Assembly (NCBI RefSeq): GCF_000685865.1 | Contig: NZ_JMKS01000003.1 | Location: forward strand, 1,054,001-1,118,000 | Source of the DNA: Exiguobacterium antarcticum DSM 14480 | GTDB taxonomy: Bacteria; Bacillota; Bacilli; Exiguobacteriales; Exiguobacteriaceae | Length of the DNA stretch: 64,000 nt | Direction: 5' to 3' | Shown: one piece after another, positions 8,535 to 15,965 of the stretch | Position numbering within the stretch: position 1 is the stretch's first letter | How the letters are laid out: every line of letters starts with the position of its first letter | The notes under the pieces: model-generated | The model's database searches: none | Seen by the model: only the letters and a program-made list of their open reading frames with translations | What the model was told of the DNA's origin: nothing | Program-made: the position numbers and the translations under genes

Positions 8535-8644
8535 ATGATTGAAGGGTCACGAAAGAAACGTCTTGTTTTTCTGTTTTGAAGCATACAGAAATAGACCTTT
8601 CTCTGAATGTATTTTTCAGAAAATGGTTTCAAGCACATTTTTTC

Positions 8645-8782
8645 GTTCTTCTCCCATCCGGACTTTACCGTCGGCCTTGGAATCACACCAAGTCAGCCAT
8701 AGTGCGTACACTATGGGTCGCGGGCTCGTCGATTCGAAAATCGCATCACCGCCGGTTGGGATTTTCACCCTACCCCGAAGAA
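8645..8782 (-). promoter_or_regulatory. FMN riboswitch (RFN element)
   Basis: The reverse strand contains the canonical RFN segments in order: CTTCGGGGTAGGGTGAAAAT, CCGGCGGTGAT, the GAGCCCGCGA junction, TGACTTGGTGTGATTCC, and GCCGACGGTAAAGTCCGGATG. The variable arm holds the short palindrome CATAGTGTACGCACTATG. FMN binding should favour the downstream terminator and shut down ribDE-BA-H. The remaining upstream part, 8783-8937, holds only likely promoter sequence. Confidence 0.95.
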
Positions 8783-8937
8783 CTGGTTATTCAGTTGTGC
8801 AGTTCAAGACTAGCACAGGTTATTTTAAAATACAAAAAAGAATTTGTTTTTACATCCATTTCCGAAAAAATATGCCCCATTCAGCGGACTATCAAAGCAA
8901 CATCTGCCGGATGGACACATACTTTTTATTTTGACTG

Positions 8938-10149
8938 TTACGCCAAATAACCGTTTTTCCGGTCATGGAACTCTTGTTTGACCGTCCCGAGCAACTGTCC
9001 GTCCGTCAACAGACGTAACGCCGTCCGAGCCAGGATTTTTGCGCCGGTGATCAAGGCTTCGTCGCCTTGTTCCGACCGAGCCGCTTCCCGGAAACTTTCC
9101 GTGTGGGCGACCAAATCGTCCGCTCCGATCTTGATGTACGGATGGATGGTCGGCAGGACCTGGCTGATATTGCCGGCGTCGGTCGAACCGAGACCCGGGC
9201 GTTCATCCGTCTTGACGTCTTCCCCAAGCGCCACTGCTTCCTCCCGGAAAATCTCGTCAAACGTCCGGTTGAACAGCAGATTGTCGACCTCATTTTGGAA
9301 CGCGATGATCTCAAGCGTCGCCCCGGTCGCAAGCGCTGCCCCTTCGGCAACGGCCTTAACCTTCTTCGTCACGGCATTCAGCCGGTCGCGCGTCGTCGCC
9401 CGGATGAAGAAGCGTGCTTTGGCGTATTCCGGAATGATGTTCGGCGCATCACCGCCATCCGTGATGATGCCGTGAATCCGGACGTCGCTCGGCAATTGCT
9501 GACGCAAGGCATTGATGCCGTTAAACAGTTGGATGACGGCGTCGAGTGCATTGATGCCCTCTTCCGGTGACGCTGCCGCGTGAGCCGGCTTGCCGGTAAA
9601 GGCAAAGTCCAGTGGATCAACAGCAAGCGAGGAACCGGTGATCCGCGTTTGTCCGGACGGATGAATCATCAGTGCCGCATCAATCCCCGTCAGGAGATCA
9701 TGTTTGACGAAGCTGCCTTTCGCACTGCCGTTTGGTCCACCTTCCTCTGCCGGTGTTCCGAGCACGACGACACTGCCCCCGACTTCATCGATGATTTTAC
9801 TGAGCGCGATCGCCGCTGCGACACTCGTCGTGCCGATGATGTTGTGACCGCAGGCGTGACCAATCCCCGGCAAAGCATCGTATTCAGCGAGGAAGGCAAC
9901 CGTCGCCCCCGGTTTATCCGAAGTCTTCCGGGCCAGGAACGCCGTGTCATGTCCCGCGACCCCGAGCTCAACCGCGAACCCTTCTGCCGTCAGGCGTTCC
10001 GCATGATGGCGCGAGGCAAAATATTCCTCGTTCCCAATCTCGGGTGTCGCATGAATCCGGTGACTCGTCTCGAGATACGACTCGCGTTTTTGTTCAATAT
10101 CCTGCTCAATCGTTTGAATCAAGTTTTCCCGTCTTGTCTGAACCGTCAT
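8938..10149 (-). CDS. M20 family amidohydrolase
   Basis: Metal-dependent hydrolase of N-acyl amino acids or small peptides. The 403-residue protein carries the family motifs AEYDALPGIGHACGHN (metal ligands Asp and His), GTPAEEGGPNGSAKGSF with the catalytic Glu, the dimerisation domain GKPAHAAASPEEG, and GSTDAGNISQVLP. The start at 10149 is chosen over a GTG 9 bases earlier because the latter overlaps the AAAGGAGC site. It follows metQ by 27 bases and has no own terminator before it, so it belongs to the SAM-riboswitch-controlled methionine uptake operon. Release of methionine from an acylated or peptide form is a plausible but unproven role. Confidence 0.85.
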   Translation of the reverse strand: MTVQTRRENLIQTIEQDIEQKRESYLETSHRIHATPEIGNEEYFASRHHAERLTAEGFAVELGVAGHDTAFLARKTSDKPGATVAFLAEYDALPGIGHACGHNIIGTTSVAAAIALSKIIDEVGGSVVVLGTPAEEGGPNGSAKGSFVKHDLLTGIDAALMIHPSGQTRITGSSLAVDPLDFAFTGKPAHAAASPEEGINALDAVIQLFNGINALRQQLPSDVRIHGIITDGGDAPNIIPEYAKARFFIRATTRDRLNAVTKKVKAVAEGAALATGATLEIIAFQNEVDNLLFNRTFDEIFREEAVALGEDVKTDERPGLGSTDAGNISQVLPTIHPYIKIGADDLVAHTESFREAARSEQGDEALITGAKILARTALRLLTDGQLLGTVKQEFHDRKNGYLA

Positions 10150-10176
10150 TTGGGTCACGCTCCTTTGGATGTTTAA

Positions 10177-10998
10177 TTATTCGCCAATGTCACTGAGTGG
10201 GACGAACGTCGGAATCGTGCTTCCTTTGTACTCTTTTTTGATGAAGGCCGCGACATCATCCTGTTGGTAAAGTGAAGCAATTTTCTTCAACGTCTTTTTG
10301 TCTTTGTCTTCCGTTCGTGTCGCGATGATGTTGATATAGGGTTTCGCTGTTGCATTTTCATGGAGAATCGAGTCTTTGATCGGATTAAAGCCGGCATCCA
10401 CGGCGATCCCGTTATTGATGATTGATGCCGATACATCCGGCAGAACACGTGGCGTCTGCCCGGCGACGACTGGGACAATCTTCAGCTTTTTCGGATTCTC
10501 GACGATTTTGTCGACGGCTCCGTTTCCGTCAAAGTCGTCCGGTAGCTTGATCAAGCCGGCTTCCTGCAGCAACAGGAGTGCCCGTCCCATGTTCGTCGCC
10601 TCGTTCGGGACGGCAATCTTTCCACCGACCGGGATATCTTTGACGTCCTTGACTTTATCCGAATAGATCCCCATCGGTGCGATGACGGTCGTCGCAATCG
10701 GCGATAGCTTTAAGTTATGTTCTTTTTTAAAGGCATTGAAGTACGAAATCGTCTGGAACGAATTGGCATCGATTTCGCCTTCTGCGAGTGCCAGGTTCGG
10801 TTGCACATAATCGGAGAATTTGACGAGTTCAATCGTGATGCCCTCTTTTTTCGCTTTTTTCGCGACGTATTCCCAAACTTGCGTATCCGAGCTGCTGACG
10901 CCGAGCTTGACCGTATTTTGATCCTCTTCCCCGGACGCCGCACACCCTGCAAATAATACCATCGTTAATGCTGCACCAATCGCTAATCCTTTTTTCAT
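10177..10998 (-). CDS. metQ: Methionine-binding lipoprotein of ABC importer
   Basis: Substrate-binding protein of the NlpA/MetQ family. It has a lipoprotein signal peptide ending FAGC (Cys19), then the family pattern: TVKLGVSSSDTQVWEYVAKKA, LVKFSDYVQPNLALAEGEID, NSFQTISYFNAF, and a conserved PNEATNMGRALLLLQ segment. Length of 273 residues is usual. It captures D- or L-methionine outside the cell and delivers it to MetI/MetN encoded just upstream. Confidence 0.93.
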   Translation of the reverse strand: MKKGLAIGAALTMVLFAGCAASGEEDQNTVKLGVSSSDTQVWEYVAKKAKKEGITIELVKFSDYVQPNLALAEGEIDANSFQTISYFNAFKKEHNLKLSPIATTVIAPMGIYSDKVKDVKDIPVGGKIAVPNEATNMGRALLLLQEAGLIKLPDDFDGNGAVDKIVENPKKLKIVPVVAGQTPRVLPDVSASIINNGIAVDAGFNPIKDSILHENATAKPYINIIATRTEDKDKKTLKKIASLYQQDDVAAFIKKEYKGSTIPTFVPLSDIGE

Positions 10999-11030
10999 CG
11001 TTCATCTCTCCCTTATCTTCTCTATGTTTT

Positions 11031-11681
11031 TTAGTGTCTGCGAATTTTTCGTGCCAACAGGTTGCCCATCGTCTGTAAACCTTGGACGAGGATGACGAGT
11101 ATCCCGACCGTGATGAGCATGACGGTCGTATCAAACCGTTGGTAGCCGTAGGTGATCGCCAAGTCCCCGAGGCCTCCGCCGCCGATCGCACCGGCCATCG
11201 CCGACGCTCCGATCAAGCCGATCGTCGCAATCGTCAAGTTCAGGACCAATGAACTGAGTGCTTCCGGCAATAAGAAACGGAAAATCGTCTGCAACGGTGT
11301 CGCTCCCATTGCCTTTGCTGCCTCGAGGACCCCCGTGTCGACTTCAAGCAACGAACTTTCGATCAATCGGGCGATGTACGGCGCCGCATAAAAGACGAGT
11401 GGAACGATTGCCGCCTGTGTCCCGATCGATGAACCGACAATCAGACGGGTCAACGGGATGATCGCGACGAGTAAGATGATGAACGGCACCGACCGGAAGA
11501 TATTGACGATACTGCTCAAGACGTTGAAGAACGGGACTTGTTCGAGCAACGCCCCTTTTCGTGTGACGACGAGCAAAATCCCAAGCGGTAAACCAATCAA
11601 GGTCGAAAAGAGTAATGACAGACCGACCATCGTCAAGGTCTGCAGGAAGGCGGTCCAAATATCCGTGTAGTTAACCAGCAT
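11031..11681 (-). CDS. metI: Methionine ABC transporter permease
   Basis: A 216-residue inner-membrane permease with five predicted hydrophobic segments and the EAA loop EAAKAMGATPLQTIFRFLLP, which contacts the ATPase. The start at 11681 follows GAGGAGGTG and lies inside the end of metN (11-base overlap); an upstream in-frame start would lie deep in metN. The C-terminal region with IGGGGLGDLAITYGYQRF is characteristic of MetI. In some Bacillales the same gene is called metP. Confidence 0.93.
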   Translation of the reverse strand: MLVNYTDIWTAFLQTLTMVGLSLLFSTLIGLPLGILLVVTRKGALLEQVPFFNVLSSIVNIFRSVPFIILLVAIIPLTRLIVGSSIGTQAAIVPLVFYAAPYIARLIESSLLEVDTGVLEAAKAMGATPLQTIFRFLLPEALSSLVLNLTIATIGLIGASAMAGAIGGGGLGDLAITYGYQRFDTTVMLITVGILVILVQGLQTMGNLLARKIRRH

Positions 11682-12702
11682 CTGCGAGCACCTCCTCGAC
11701 CGTGACTTGGGCTTCGTCGATGTATTGCAAGGCCCGGCTGATTTCTGCCGTTTCACCAATCAGTTCGACGAGCAGACTGCCAAACGGGATGTTTTGCAGT
11801 TCCGTGATACTCCCGTGCAGGATGTTAAGATCGATGTCAAACCGTTTTGCGACTTGTGACAACAGCGGTTGCCCGGTATGTGCTCCGAGAAAGTTGATCT
11901 TATAAATATGATGGTTGGCTTCACGTCGTTCGATCAACTGTTGAACGGACGCCGGAATTTCATCCTGCATGACGGACCGGACGAAGTTTTTCGCCGTCGC
12001 CGTCTGCGGGTTCGAGAAGACATCGAACACGGTACCCGACTCAATCAGCTTGCCGGCTTCGATGACGGCGACCCGGTCACAAATCTCCCGGATGACGCCC
12101 ATCTCGTGTGTAATCAGTAAAATCGTGATGCCGTATTCCTCGTTGATCTGTTTCAGTAAACGCAGGATATGTTGTGTCGTCTGCGGATCAAGCGCCGATG
12201 TCGCTTCGTCACATAACAGAACCGACGGCTGGGTCGCGAGTGCCCGGGCGATTCCGACCCGTTGTTTCTGTCCACCCGACAACTGATCCGGATAATGATC
12301 GGCTTTATCGGCCAGGTCGACGAACGCGAGGAGTTCATGGACACGCCGATGGATTTCAGCCTTTTTGACACCTGTCAGGACAAGTGGTTTCGCGACGTTC
12401 GCAAAGACGGTATTCGAATCCAGCAAGTTGAAATGTTGAAAAATCATCCCGATCTGTTGCTTGGCTTCGCGGAGTTGTTTTGCCGAGAGGCTCGTCAATT
12501 CTTGCCCATCGACTGTCACGCTGCCGGATGTTGGACGTTCGAGAAGGTTGACACAGCGTAACAACGAACTTTTTCCGGCCCCACTAAATCCGATGACCCC
12601 GAAGATTTCACCTTTTTTAATTTCAAGATCGACACCGTCTAGTGCAGCGATTGACTGATCTTGTGTCTGATAGATTTTTTTTACATTTTTGAATGTAATC
12701 AC
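11671..12702 (-). CDS. metN: Methionine ABC transporter ATP-binding protein
   Basis: ABC ATPase with Walker A GFSGAGKSSL, Q-loop region GMIFQHFNLL, signature LSGGQKQRVGIARAL, Walker B VLLCDEATSALDP and the H-loop ITHE. The C-terminal 90 residues form the NIL ligand-sensing domain typical of MetN, used for feedback inhibition by methionine. The second of two adjacent GTG codons (12702) is chosen because AAGGGGGG lies 7 bases upstream; the long open frame further upstream runs through the riboswitch and is not coding. Confidence 0.93.
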   Translation of the reverse strand: MITFKNVKKIYQTQDQSIAALDGVDLEIKKGEIFGVIGFSGAGKSSLLRCVNLLERPTSGSVTVDGQELTSLSAKQLREAKQQIGMIFQHFNLLDSNTVFANVAKPLVLTGVKKAEIHRRVHELLAFVDLADKADHYPDQLSGGQKQRVGIARALATQPSVLLCDEATSALDPQTTQHILRLLKQINEEYGITILLITHEMGVIREICDRVAVIEAGKLIESGTVFDVFSNPQTATAKNFVRSVMQDEIPASVQQLIERREANHHIYKINFLGAHTGQPLLSQVAKRFDIDLNILHGSITELQNIPFGSLLVELIGETAEISRALQYIDEAQVTVEEVLADAG

Positions 12703-12720
12703 CACGTTTCCCCCCTTAAA

Positions 12721-12759: not shown

Positions 12760-12789
12760 TGGATCCGCACAAAGGCAGAATCCACTCGA

Positions 12790-12893
12790 CTCATCTCTCA
12801 GACAACTGTCTGATGGAATTGGCACAGTGCTCATAATGAGTCTGTTGCCGAGGTTTCGTAGGGCCAGTCCCTCCACCTCTCTGGATAAGTGTT
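12790..12893 (-). promoter_or_regulatory. SAM-I riboswitch (S-box) of the metNIQ operon
   Basis: The reverse strand matches the SAM-I core closely: ACTTATCCAGAGAGGTGGAG, GGACTGGCCC, GAAACCTCGGCAACA, GTGCCAATTCC, and closing AGAGATGAGT, which re-pairs with the 5' ACTTATC to form P1. SAM binding is expected to promote the adjacent terminator and lower methionine uptake when SAM is abundant. Confidence 0.95.
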
Positions 12894-13108: not shown

Positions 13109-13138
13109 CTTCACAATGATTAATCCGACAATTCCTAT

Positions 13139-13245
13139 ACGATATATCAAGAGTGGACGAGAGAACTGGCTCTAGGACTCCACGGCAACCTGCAATTCGC
13201 AAGGTGCTCCGACCAGCAAAGCAACCGCTTTGGATGATACATACG
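13139..13245 (+). promoter_or_regulatory. Diverged SAM-I-like riboswitch candidate
   Basis: The RNA keeps the SAM-I layout with changed details: ATCAAGAGTGGA, a kink-turn with tandem G-A pairs between GUGGA and UCCAC, loop ACTGG pairing with CCAG (pseudoknot), GGCAACC, AGGTGC, and a P4 hairpin CAAAGC/GCTTTG. The AAUU of the canonical GUGCCAAUUCC is CCGA here, and P1 is short. The segment GCTTTGGA (13227-13234) can instead pair perfectly with TCCAAAGC (13262-13269) in the loop of the next terminator. That gives a competing antiterminator, so ligand binding would favour termination. Ligand identity is unproven: SAM or a related molecule. Confidence 0.7.
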
Positions 13246-13247
13246 AG

Positions 13248-13290
13248 AAACTCGTTTGCCGTCCAAAGCCAAACGAGTTTTTTTATTTTT
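13248..13290 (+). terminator. Terminator between the leader and the hydrolase gene
   Basis: AAACTCGTTTG (13248-13258) pairs with CAAACGAGTTT-type sequence ending at 13280, followed by a T-rich run. It is placed before the ribosome binding site, so it should control the gene rather than end it. Confidence 0.85.
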
Positions 13291-13308
13291 GAAATGGAGG
13301 ACACCTTG

Positions 13309-14067
13309 ATGAGTATGCTTTATCCTGTTTTACCAGGGGCTGATGCCTTTTTATTAGAACGTGGATCCGTCGGGATTCTGTTGTGTCATGGTTTTAACGC
13401 AACACCACAAAGTGTTCGTGCTGTAGGCGAACGCTTCGCAGAACATGGTTTCACCGTCCATGCACCTCGCTTAGCGGGTCACGGAACCGACCTCCGTGAC
13501 TTTGCCGCTTCGACTGCTGAAGACTGGAAACAAAGTGTCCGCGAAGGATTTGACCTGTTAGCCAAACAGTGTCCATCCATCTTCATCGTCGGTCAATCGA
13601 TGGGGGCGACGCTCGCCTTAGCACTCGCCACCGAAGGATTGCCGGTCGATGGCATCATCACGATCAACGCAGCCCTGTCCGTCCCAGCGTACGAAGCGTT
13701 ATCGTTCGATGATTGTCCGGACCAACTGCCTGAAAGCGCCCCCGATATCAAACGTCCGGCTTTTGAAATCATTTATGATTTCGTCCCGACCACGTGTGCA
13801 GCAGAACTGTTACGCTTGATCCGGGACACGGTTCCCGACTTACCTACACTTCAAATTCCCACCCTTATTTTATATTCTGTGGAAGATCACGTCGTCCCAT
13901 CCAGTTGCTCCGATTACCTGCACCGGACAATCAGCTCTGTCGACAAACGTACGTATTGTCTGCTCAATTCGTATCATGTCGCGACGCTCGATTACGATCA
14001 AGAGGCAATTGTGGAGGAGACGATCCGATTCGTCGAACAGTTCAGCCGGTTGACCGAGACGGGTTGA
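13309..14067 (+). CDS. Alpha/beta hydrolase (carboxylesterase family)
   Basis: A 252-residue cytoplasmic hydrolase resembling Est30-type carboxylesterases. Seen motifs: LLCHGFNATP (oxyanion region), nucleophile elbow GQSMG, acid in YSVEDHVVP, and catalytic His in NSYHVATLD. The start at 13309 has GGAGG 8 bases upstream. It is a single-gene unit under a SAM-I-like leader, which is unusual for this family and suggests a substrate linked to sulfur or methyl metabolism. That link is inference only; a general esterase remains possible. Confidence 0.85.
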   Translation: MSMLYPVLPGADAFLLERGSVGILLCHGFNATPQSVRAVGERFAEHGFTVHAPRLAGHGTDLRDFAASTAEDWKQSVREGFDLLAKQCPSIFIVGQSMGATLALALATEGLPVDGIITINAALSVPAYEALSFDDCPDQLPESAPDIKRPAFEIIYDFVPTTCAAELLRLIRDTVPDLPTLQIPTLILYSVEDHVVPSSCSDYLHRTISSVDKRTYCLLNSYHVATLDYDQEAIVEETIRFVEQFSRLTETG

Positions 14068-15868: not shown

Positions 15869-15965
15869 GGTTGTTTTCTCTCCTTCCGCCCTGGTTCATT
15901 TGCTGAGCCAGAGTAAGTTACCTTCCTATACTAAACGATTTTTTGACGACCCGCAATACCTATTT

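Follow-up and report, generated by a model that had tools for sequence, protein, structure and literature searches.

SAM-I riboswitches (S box, RF00162) combine a four-way junction, a kink-turn (K-turn), a CUGG/CCAG pseudoknot and a ligand pocket built from J1/2 and P3 with a terminator-based expression platform. In the crystallographic account, the SAM pocket comprises A6-C8, A46-C47, G56-G58 and G89; positions 64 and 85 lie in a triple with A24, (A85-U64)-A24, and A61-62 touch P2 (PMC9580860). Covariation of what we take to be the 64-85 pair is already on record in an earlier study (PMC2258182), and work on yitJ places a P1 strand in the antiterminator (PMC3656099). SAM-I variants with a new ligand also exist: a spermidine-sensing class, found among Bacillus and its relatives, acts through termination (PMC10853860). 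On the protein side, the nearest solved structures to the enzyme discussed here are monoacylglycerol lipases, among them the Bacillus enzyme bMGL (PDB 4lhe, 3rm3, 4ke6 and relatives), whose activity is reported to fall when the gatekeeper Ile-145 is changed to Gly or Ser (PMC3829422).

Here we compare with these systems a leader in Exiguobacterium antarcticum DSM 14480 that lies in a 64,000-nucleotide stretch, which we call the window. The leader is a full-length match to RF00162 (model positions 1-108, window 13141-13243, + strand) at 66.9 bits against a cut-off of 44.4 (cmscan, Rfam); the covariance scan keeps only the best clan member, and RF00162 was the one kept for 13141-13243. It shares with SAM-I the elements named above, and differs in its J3/4, in a 64-85 pair swapped to A-U, in an extra P2-loop nucleotide and in a very short P1. 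Aptamer membership, conservation, alternative pairings and gene association are computed results, and the ligand, the direction of control and the enzyme's substrate are inferred: this is probably a SAM-sensing SAM-I riboswitch with a variant scaffold, which switches the hydrolase off by transcription termination within a methionine uptake and salvage regulon. The features of the locus are as follows.

8938-12705 (- strand): metN, metI, metQ and an M20-type amidohydrolase, under the SAM-I riboswitch at 12788-12891
12788-12891 (- strand): canonical SAM-I riboswitch of the divergent metNIQ-M20 operon, 91.0 bits
13079-13108 (+ strand): promoter, TTGACA, 18 nt, TATTAT, with TG before the -10; 11 of 12 matches
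13142-13148 (+ strand): P1 5′ strand, partner 13236-13242, one A-C mismatch
13149-13152 (+ strand): J1/2 (AAGA of AAGAG), canonical, invariant in 23 of 23 leaders
13153-13183 (+ strand): P2 arm with K-turn; loop AACUGG, the canonical ACUGG plus one nucleotide
13166-13169 (+ strand): pseudoknot 5′ side, CUGG
13184-13208 (+ strand): P3 arm with the SAM-binding internal loop, GGCAACC / GGUGC
13208-13212 (+ strand): J3/4, UCCGA where the consensus is CAAUU
13212 and 13235 (+ strand): A13212 (position 64) paired with U13235 (position 85)
13213-13216 (+ strand): pseudoknot 3′ side, CCAG
13217-13232 (+ strand): P4 hairpin, CAAAGC/GCUUUG; the switch runs through its 3′ strand
13233-13242 (+ strand): J4/1 (GAU) and P1 3′ strand
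13227-13269 (+ strand): antiterminator, 13227-13236 with 13260-13269 (10 bp), inner hairpin 13243-13247/13251-13255
13249-13290 (+ strand): intrinsic terminator, arms 13249-13258 and 13270-13279, U tract to 13290
13296-13300 (+ strand): ribosome-binding site, GGAGG
13309-14067 (+ strand): alpha/beta hydrolase of the monoacylglycerol-lipase family, 252 amino acids, triad S97-D193-H223

Positions 64 and 85 are in T. tengcongensis numbering, which we mapped through the Rfam structure line. The preliminary description of this stretch had proposed a SAM-I variant in front of an alpha/beta hydrolase, with the class architecture, an altered CAAUU element, a weak P1 and a clear expression platform in which P4 alternates with a perfect 8-bp pairing. 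All of this is borne out: AAGAG, the K-turn positions, CUGG/CCAG, GGCAACC and GGUGC are in the sequence; scoring with the Rfam SAM clan gave RF00162 above its cut-off over the full model; J3/4 does depart from the consensus; P1 has only four solid pairs over 23 hydrolase leaders; homologous leaders precede the hydrolase in every same-genus locus compared and recur in other lineages; and the perfect pairing is part of the minimum-energy fold that precedes the terminator.

The positions that contact SAM in J1/2, P1 and the P3 internal loop are canonical in the window; position 89 is A, and both A and G occur there among the other SAM-I leaders of this genome. The G-A positions of the K-turn are present in the window and invariant across 23 leaders, and the fold of the leader beats 200 of 200 shuffles (z = -2.95). 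J3/4 does not match the AAUU of the consensus, and it varies in other copies of this genome too; we do not count this departure alone as defining, since the RF00162 score stays above the cut-off. The Rfam consensus writes A61-62 in upper case and 63-64 in lower case, and the CC found at 61-62 in the window counts against a SAM-responsive OFF switch. Just 5′ of P1, all 19 same-genus leaders share the unchanged element CCGACAATTCC (13125-13135); a search by eye for a pairing partner for it found none, and the 15-mer CCGACAATTCCNATA has one exact occurrence in the genome plus two places with one mismatch. The TTGAC and TGnTA columns of the promoter are likewise invariant across the 19 same-genus leaders.

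By aligning 23 distinct hydrolase leaders, a consistent pattern of retained and altered interactions emerges. The pseudoknot (four of four pairs invariant), P2, outer P3 and P4 are paired in 100% of cells, and P1 in 72.7%, with only four reliable pairs, which counts against the OFF-switch reading. The 64-85 pair is A-U in 18 leaders, G-U in two and unpaired in three, where the Rfam consensus is U-A. The P2 loop reads AnCUGG with its one extra nucleotide, and J3/4 is mostly UCCn(A); a six-base P2 loop is also found in two other leaders of the E. antarcticum genome (L004, L008). Exceptions at SAM-contacting positions are confined to an A at position 8 in 2 of 23 leaders and a G at position 46 in 2 of 23; the latter substitution, GCAGCC for GCAACC, is seen in hydrolase leaders L162 and L163 and falls inside the SAM pocket. 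Both substitutions count against the OFF-switch reading. Because covariation of 64-85 has been reported before, the swap in itself has precedent, and the notable point is its combination with the other changes.

The expression platform differs from that of yitJ in using the P4 3′ strand and J4/1 in place of a P1 strand. GCTTTGGA (13227-13234) is perfectly complementary to TCCAAAGC (13262-13269) in the terminator loop, and this helix grows to 10 bp with one G-U pair between GCUUUGGAUG (13227-13236) and CGUCCAAAGC (13260-13269). Before the terminator 3′ arm exists, the minimum-energy fold is the antiterminator with an ACGAG/CUCGU hairpin inside it; with the terminator complete, it is the aptamer plus the terminator. 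Our terminator scan was limited to loops of 3-8 nucleotides, and the hairpin at 13249-13290 was not among its hits. The terminator and its complement are retained in diverged same-genus leaders. Among the first 17 hydrolase leaders listed, reading of the pairings places the antiterminator on the P4 strand in ten; the best complement lies at or past P1 in five (L162, L199, L201, L203, L204), and a clear complement was not found in two (L091, L163). The P4-type antiterminator is thus not shared by all hydrolase leaders, a further point against the OFF-switch reading.

The pairing of riboswitch and hydrolase is widespread in one genus and scattered outside it. Each of the 19 Exiguobacterium hydrolase loci (L012-L030) has a SAM-I match directly before the hydrolase, and the divergent SAM-I element is present in 18 of them. 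In the sister genus, where 18 genomes with a hydrolase match yielded 11 loci, no locus (0/11) has SAM-I before the hydrolase. A class-wide sample of 398 genomes gave a hydrolase match at E ≤ 1e-45 in 69, and 3 of 35 loci outside Exiguobacterium and the sister genus carry a SAM-I leader, all three from one genus. Within the family of that genus, 37 of 80 genomes have a hydrolase match at E ≤ 1e-60; among 30 loci examined there, ten carry the leader as judged by a variant model, R1 (including the same three genomes as in the class sample), and the remaining 20 gave no Rfam match. Hydrolases with a SAM-I leader are found in Bacillus sp. EB01 (L042), Bacillus sp. cl95 (L070) and Metabacillus lacus (L091, whose hydrolase protein is identical to that of L211), so the pairing recurs in several other Bacillaceae lineages.

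In some of these loci the hydrolase is divergent from methionine-uptake genes, as in the window: from metNIQ-M20 in L070 and from metN in L162-L164, with further SAM-I elements on the opposite strand. Proximity to metN was considered as the sole reason for the riboswitch and rejected, since five loci have the pairing with no recognised metN: L042 and L091 have other SAM-I elements and no metN hit within their 8 kb stretches (tblastn), and L204, L211 and L225 have no recognised metN in 1.5 kb flanks (ORFs read by eye). These five loci also count against the OFF-switch reading. We found no earlier report of an association between a SAM riboswitch and this hydrolase in the open-access literature, which is weak evidence of novelty. 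The hydrolase is an unusual but recurrent SAM-I target.

The same combination of changes occurs in front of other genes. A pattern scan of a species-genome collection for the swapped 64-85 pair returned at least 118 stretches. R1 was built from hydrolase leaders and hence measures closeness to them; at E ≤ 0.001 it matches 95 of the 118 stretches listed and has no match in 23. Among the matches listed its scores fall into two sets separated by a gap: the upper set, 50 stretches scoring at least 84.8 bits, is what we take as the subtype, and no other stretch exceeds 74.2 bits. This places L044, L058, L100, L107 and L139 inside by score and L122 (54.3 bits) outside; a looser regular-expression filter, which called 46 of 98 rows subtype, wrongly took L122 and missed the other five. 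What results is a SAM-I subtype that recurs and that combines the additional P2-loop nucleotide with the A64-U85 swap and an antiterminator that often lies on the P4 3′ strand. Among the matches listed, the swapped pair without the P2-loop change often stands before metK in Synergistaceae and Clostridia.

The use of P4 by the subtype was compared with shuffled sequences. Among the matches listed, 30 of 50 subtype leaders have their best downstream complement across J4/1 and the 3′ end of P4, compared with a mean of 16.1 and a maximum of 24 in dinucleotide-shuffled leaders (0 of 60 shuffles reached 30); other SAM-I leaders of the same scan use this register in 7 of 44 cases, with a shuffled mean of 9.4 and 54 of 60 shuffles as high. 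The two groups differ with a Fisher p of 1.7e-5, in which related leaders are counted separately and are not independent. These dinucleotide counts replace earlier ones from the looser set with single-base shuffles (28/46 vs 14.1 and 10/51 vs 12.8). In a single leader the P4 complement is often not significant, reaching p ≤ 0.05 in 19 of 56, and 15 of these 19 are in the P4/J4-1 register.

The first genes behind the subtype, some of which were left nameless, include hydrolases, msrA, a Cys/Met PLP enzyme, nitronate monooxygenase, metK and small proteins. Hydrolases of the monoacylglycerol-lipase family follow L042, L063 (Exiguobacterium sp. RIT594), L070, L091 and L140 (Exiguobacterium indicum); L044 and L107, subtype members by R1 score, precede metK (named by eye). 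The E. antarcticum genome has a second high-scoring member, L010, at 87.7 bits, upstream of msrA. A family of about 107 residues stands behind L058, L062, L094, L096, L109, L118, L124, L126, L134, L137 and L147, among others, and two further small-protein groups behind L060, L069, L085, L113 and L159, and behind L089, L119, L138 and L150. The small proteins of 67-87 amino acids mostly have an MKxFIIENGxV-like sequence, and those of 80-102 amino acids a LETFYEIVV-like stretch; six N-terminal pieces of small proteins (about 107 and 67-100 residues) gave no Pfam match above the cut-off.

Such targets bear on the idea that the variant core has changed its ligand, with SAH, methionine, MTA or homocysteine in place of SAM. 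The changes in J3/4, J4/1 and the P2 loop come as a set and are conserved, the subtype often precedes small uncharacterised proteins, and a change of ligand has a precedent in SAM-I variants (PMC10853860). However, the altered positions coincide with scaffold contacts, namely the (A85-U64)-A24 triple and the contact of A61-62 with P2 (PMC9580860); the SAM-holding positions of J1/2 and the P3 internal loop are canonical; and msrA, the Cys/Met PLP enzyme and metK lie behind members of the same subtype. The preliminary description had likewise suggested weak SAM sensing or a related ligand, and the comparison does not support this: the changes lie in the tertiary scaffold (J3/4, J4/1 and the P2 loop), and the J1/2 and P3 pocket is canonical. 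A new ligand is therefore unlikely, because the SAM-contacting positions are canonical in nearly all copies. We hold it similarly improbable that the subtype (CCN/ACN J3/4, extra P2-loop nucleotide, A64-U85, P4-strand antiterminator) represents a riboswitch lineage of its own, adapted to a different metabolite of the methionine cycle, with its targets forming an undescribed salvage or repair pathway for that metabolite; if this were true, the pathway would include the hydrolase subfamily and the protein families of about 107 and of 70-100 residues.

It is also improbable that the leader represents a SAM-I copy in decay that now regulates little. Its P1 is weak and its score is 66.9 bits against 91.0 for the divergent copy, the third lowest of 11 in the genome, but the completely paired pseudoknot, P2, outer P3 and P4 of the 23 leaders and the terminator and complement kept in diverged same-genus leaders argue against decay. 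That the GTG-started frame 13153-14067 runs through the aptamer as an N-terminal extension of the hydrolase is very unlikely: the stop-to-stop frame spans 313-315 codons in 7 of 19 same-genus genomes but only 257-265 in the other 12, a good ribosome-binding site precedes the ATG at 13309, and conservation tracks RNA structure; we reject the extension on the ground that the frame is closed earlier in those 12. Membership in the spermidine-sensing class, with which the leader shares SAM-I architecture with local changes, a Gram-positive host and a termination OFF switch (a direction of control that we infer here), has hardly any probability and is rejected, since the changes that define that class in the Figure 1 legend of its description lie in J1/2 and the P3 internal loop, both canonical here (PMC10853860), and the polyamine genes expected of it were not recognised among the subtype's listed first genes, some of them nameless.

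The enzyme itself scores above the cut-off for Pfam Hydrolase_4 and is 45% identical to 4lhe over 244 residues. It shares with bMGL the catalytic triad and the glycerol-contacting Glu-156 (E153 here), and differs in the loss of the Ile-145 gatekeeper and in GQSMG for GLSMG. In a midpoint-rooted tree of 95 hydrolase homologues, which omits duplicates and L070 (its gene runs off the stretch), a single supported group of 66 contains all 32 riboswitch-linked proteins, and the second group, of 29, has none of them; five changes of the riboswitch label are needed, at least three of them forced by starred branches, compared with a shuffled mean of 27.1. Thirty-four hydrolases of the same subfamily lack SAM-I; the enzyme thus does not need SAM-I control, which counts against the OFF-switch reading. 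S97, D193, H223 and E153 are present in 32 of 32 riboswitch-linked proteins and kept in the group of 66. In the gatekeeper column, every one of the 66 subfamily members has Gly, Ser or Asp, and 28 of the 29 proteins in the other group have Ile or Leu; in the alignment of the 32 riboswitch-linked proteins it is Gly in 22, Ser in nine and Asp in one, so that a hydrophobic gatekeeper is absent. Together with the lowered activity of the bMGL mutants, this hints that the substrate is not long-chain monoacylglycerol; homocysteine thiolactone and amino-acid esters are no more than guesses.

The genome has 11 SAM-I matches, whose first genes read as metN (three copies), an SfnG-like sulfur monooxygenase, an S-methylmethionine-permease-like transporter, an NhaC-type transporter, mtnW, mtnK, metK, msrA and the alpha/beta hydrolase, which thus sits among uptake, salvage and repair genes. 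Family scans covered the window metN, the monooxygenase, the permease and MsrA only, and the other names were read from sequences; the SfnG-like monooxygenase and permease pieces score under their family cut-offs. In the divergent operon, MetI and the amidohydrolase are over their NCBIfam cut-offs, and MetN and MetQ are best hits yet under theirs. The metK leader of this genome (L011) is unusual in its J3/4 (GGTGCTCTCCTGAAG) and, at 57.2 bits, scores lower against RF00162 than any other of the 11. Two further elements of the window, an FMN riboswitch (8642-8786, - strand) and an L31 leader (15880-15913, - strand), are ordinary.

Judged from its sequence, the leader is most likely an ordinary SAM-responsive OFF switch, a new ligand being unlikely. 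We predict that bound SAM would lock P1, P4, the pseudoknot and the A64-U85 pair, which would put the P4 3′ strand out of reach and let the downstream hairpin end transcription. With little SAM, GCUUUGGAUG would pair with the terminator loop (CGUCCAAAGC), the small ACGAG/CUCGU hairpin would take the terminator 5′ arm, and the gene would be read. The hydrolase probably cuts a small or polar ester, thioester or lactone, the product of which may help to restore methionine.

These results have implications for both the RNA and the enzyme. With the subtype, nature provides a way to tell the SAM-I core contacts that SAM recognition requires from those that serve only to maintain the fold, and in it the scaffold and the expression platform share nucleotides, with the P4 3′ strand and J4/1 serving both aptamer and antiterminator. 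As far as we found in the literature, the hydrolase had no prior tie to methionine metabolism; under a SAM-controlled OFF switch it would belong to the regulon for methionine uptake and salvage. A lipase-like hydrolase subfamily would thus join the methionine/SAM regulon in several lineages, which would provide a direct handle on its substrate.
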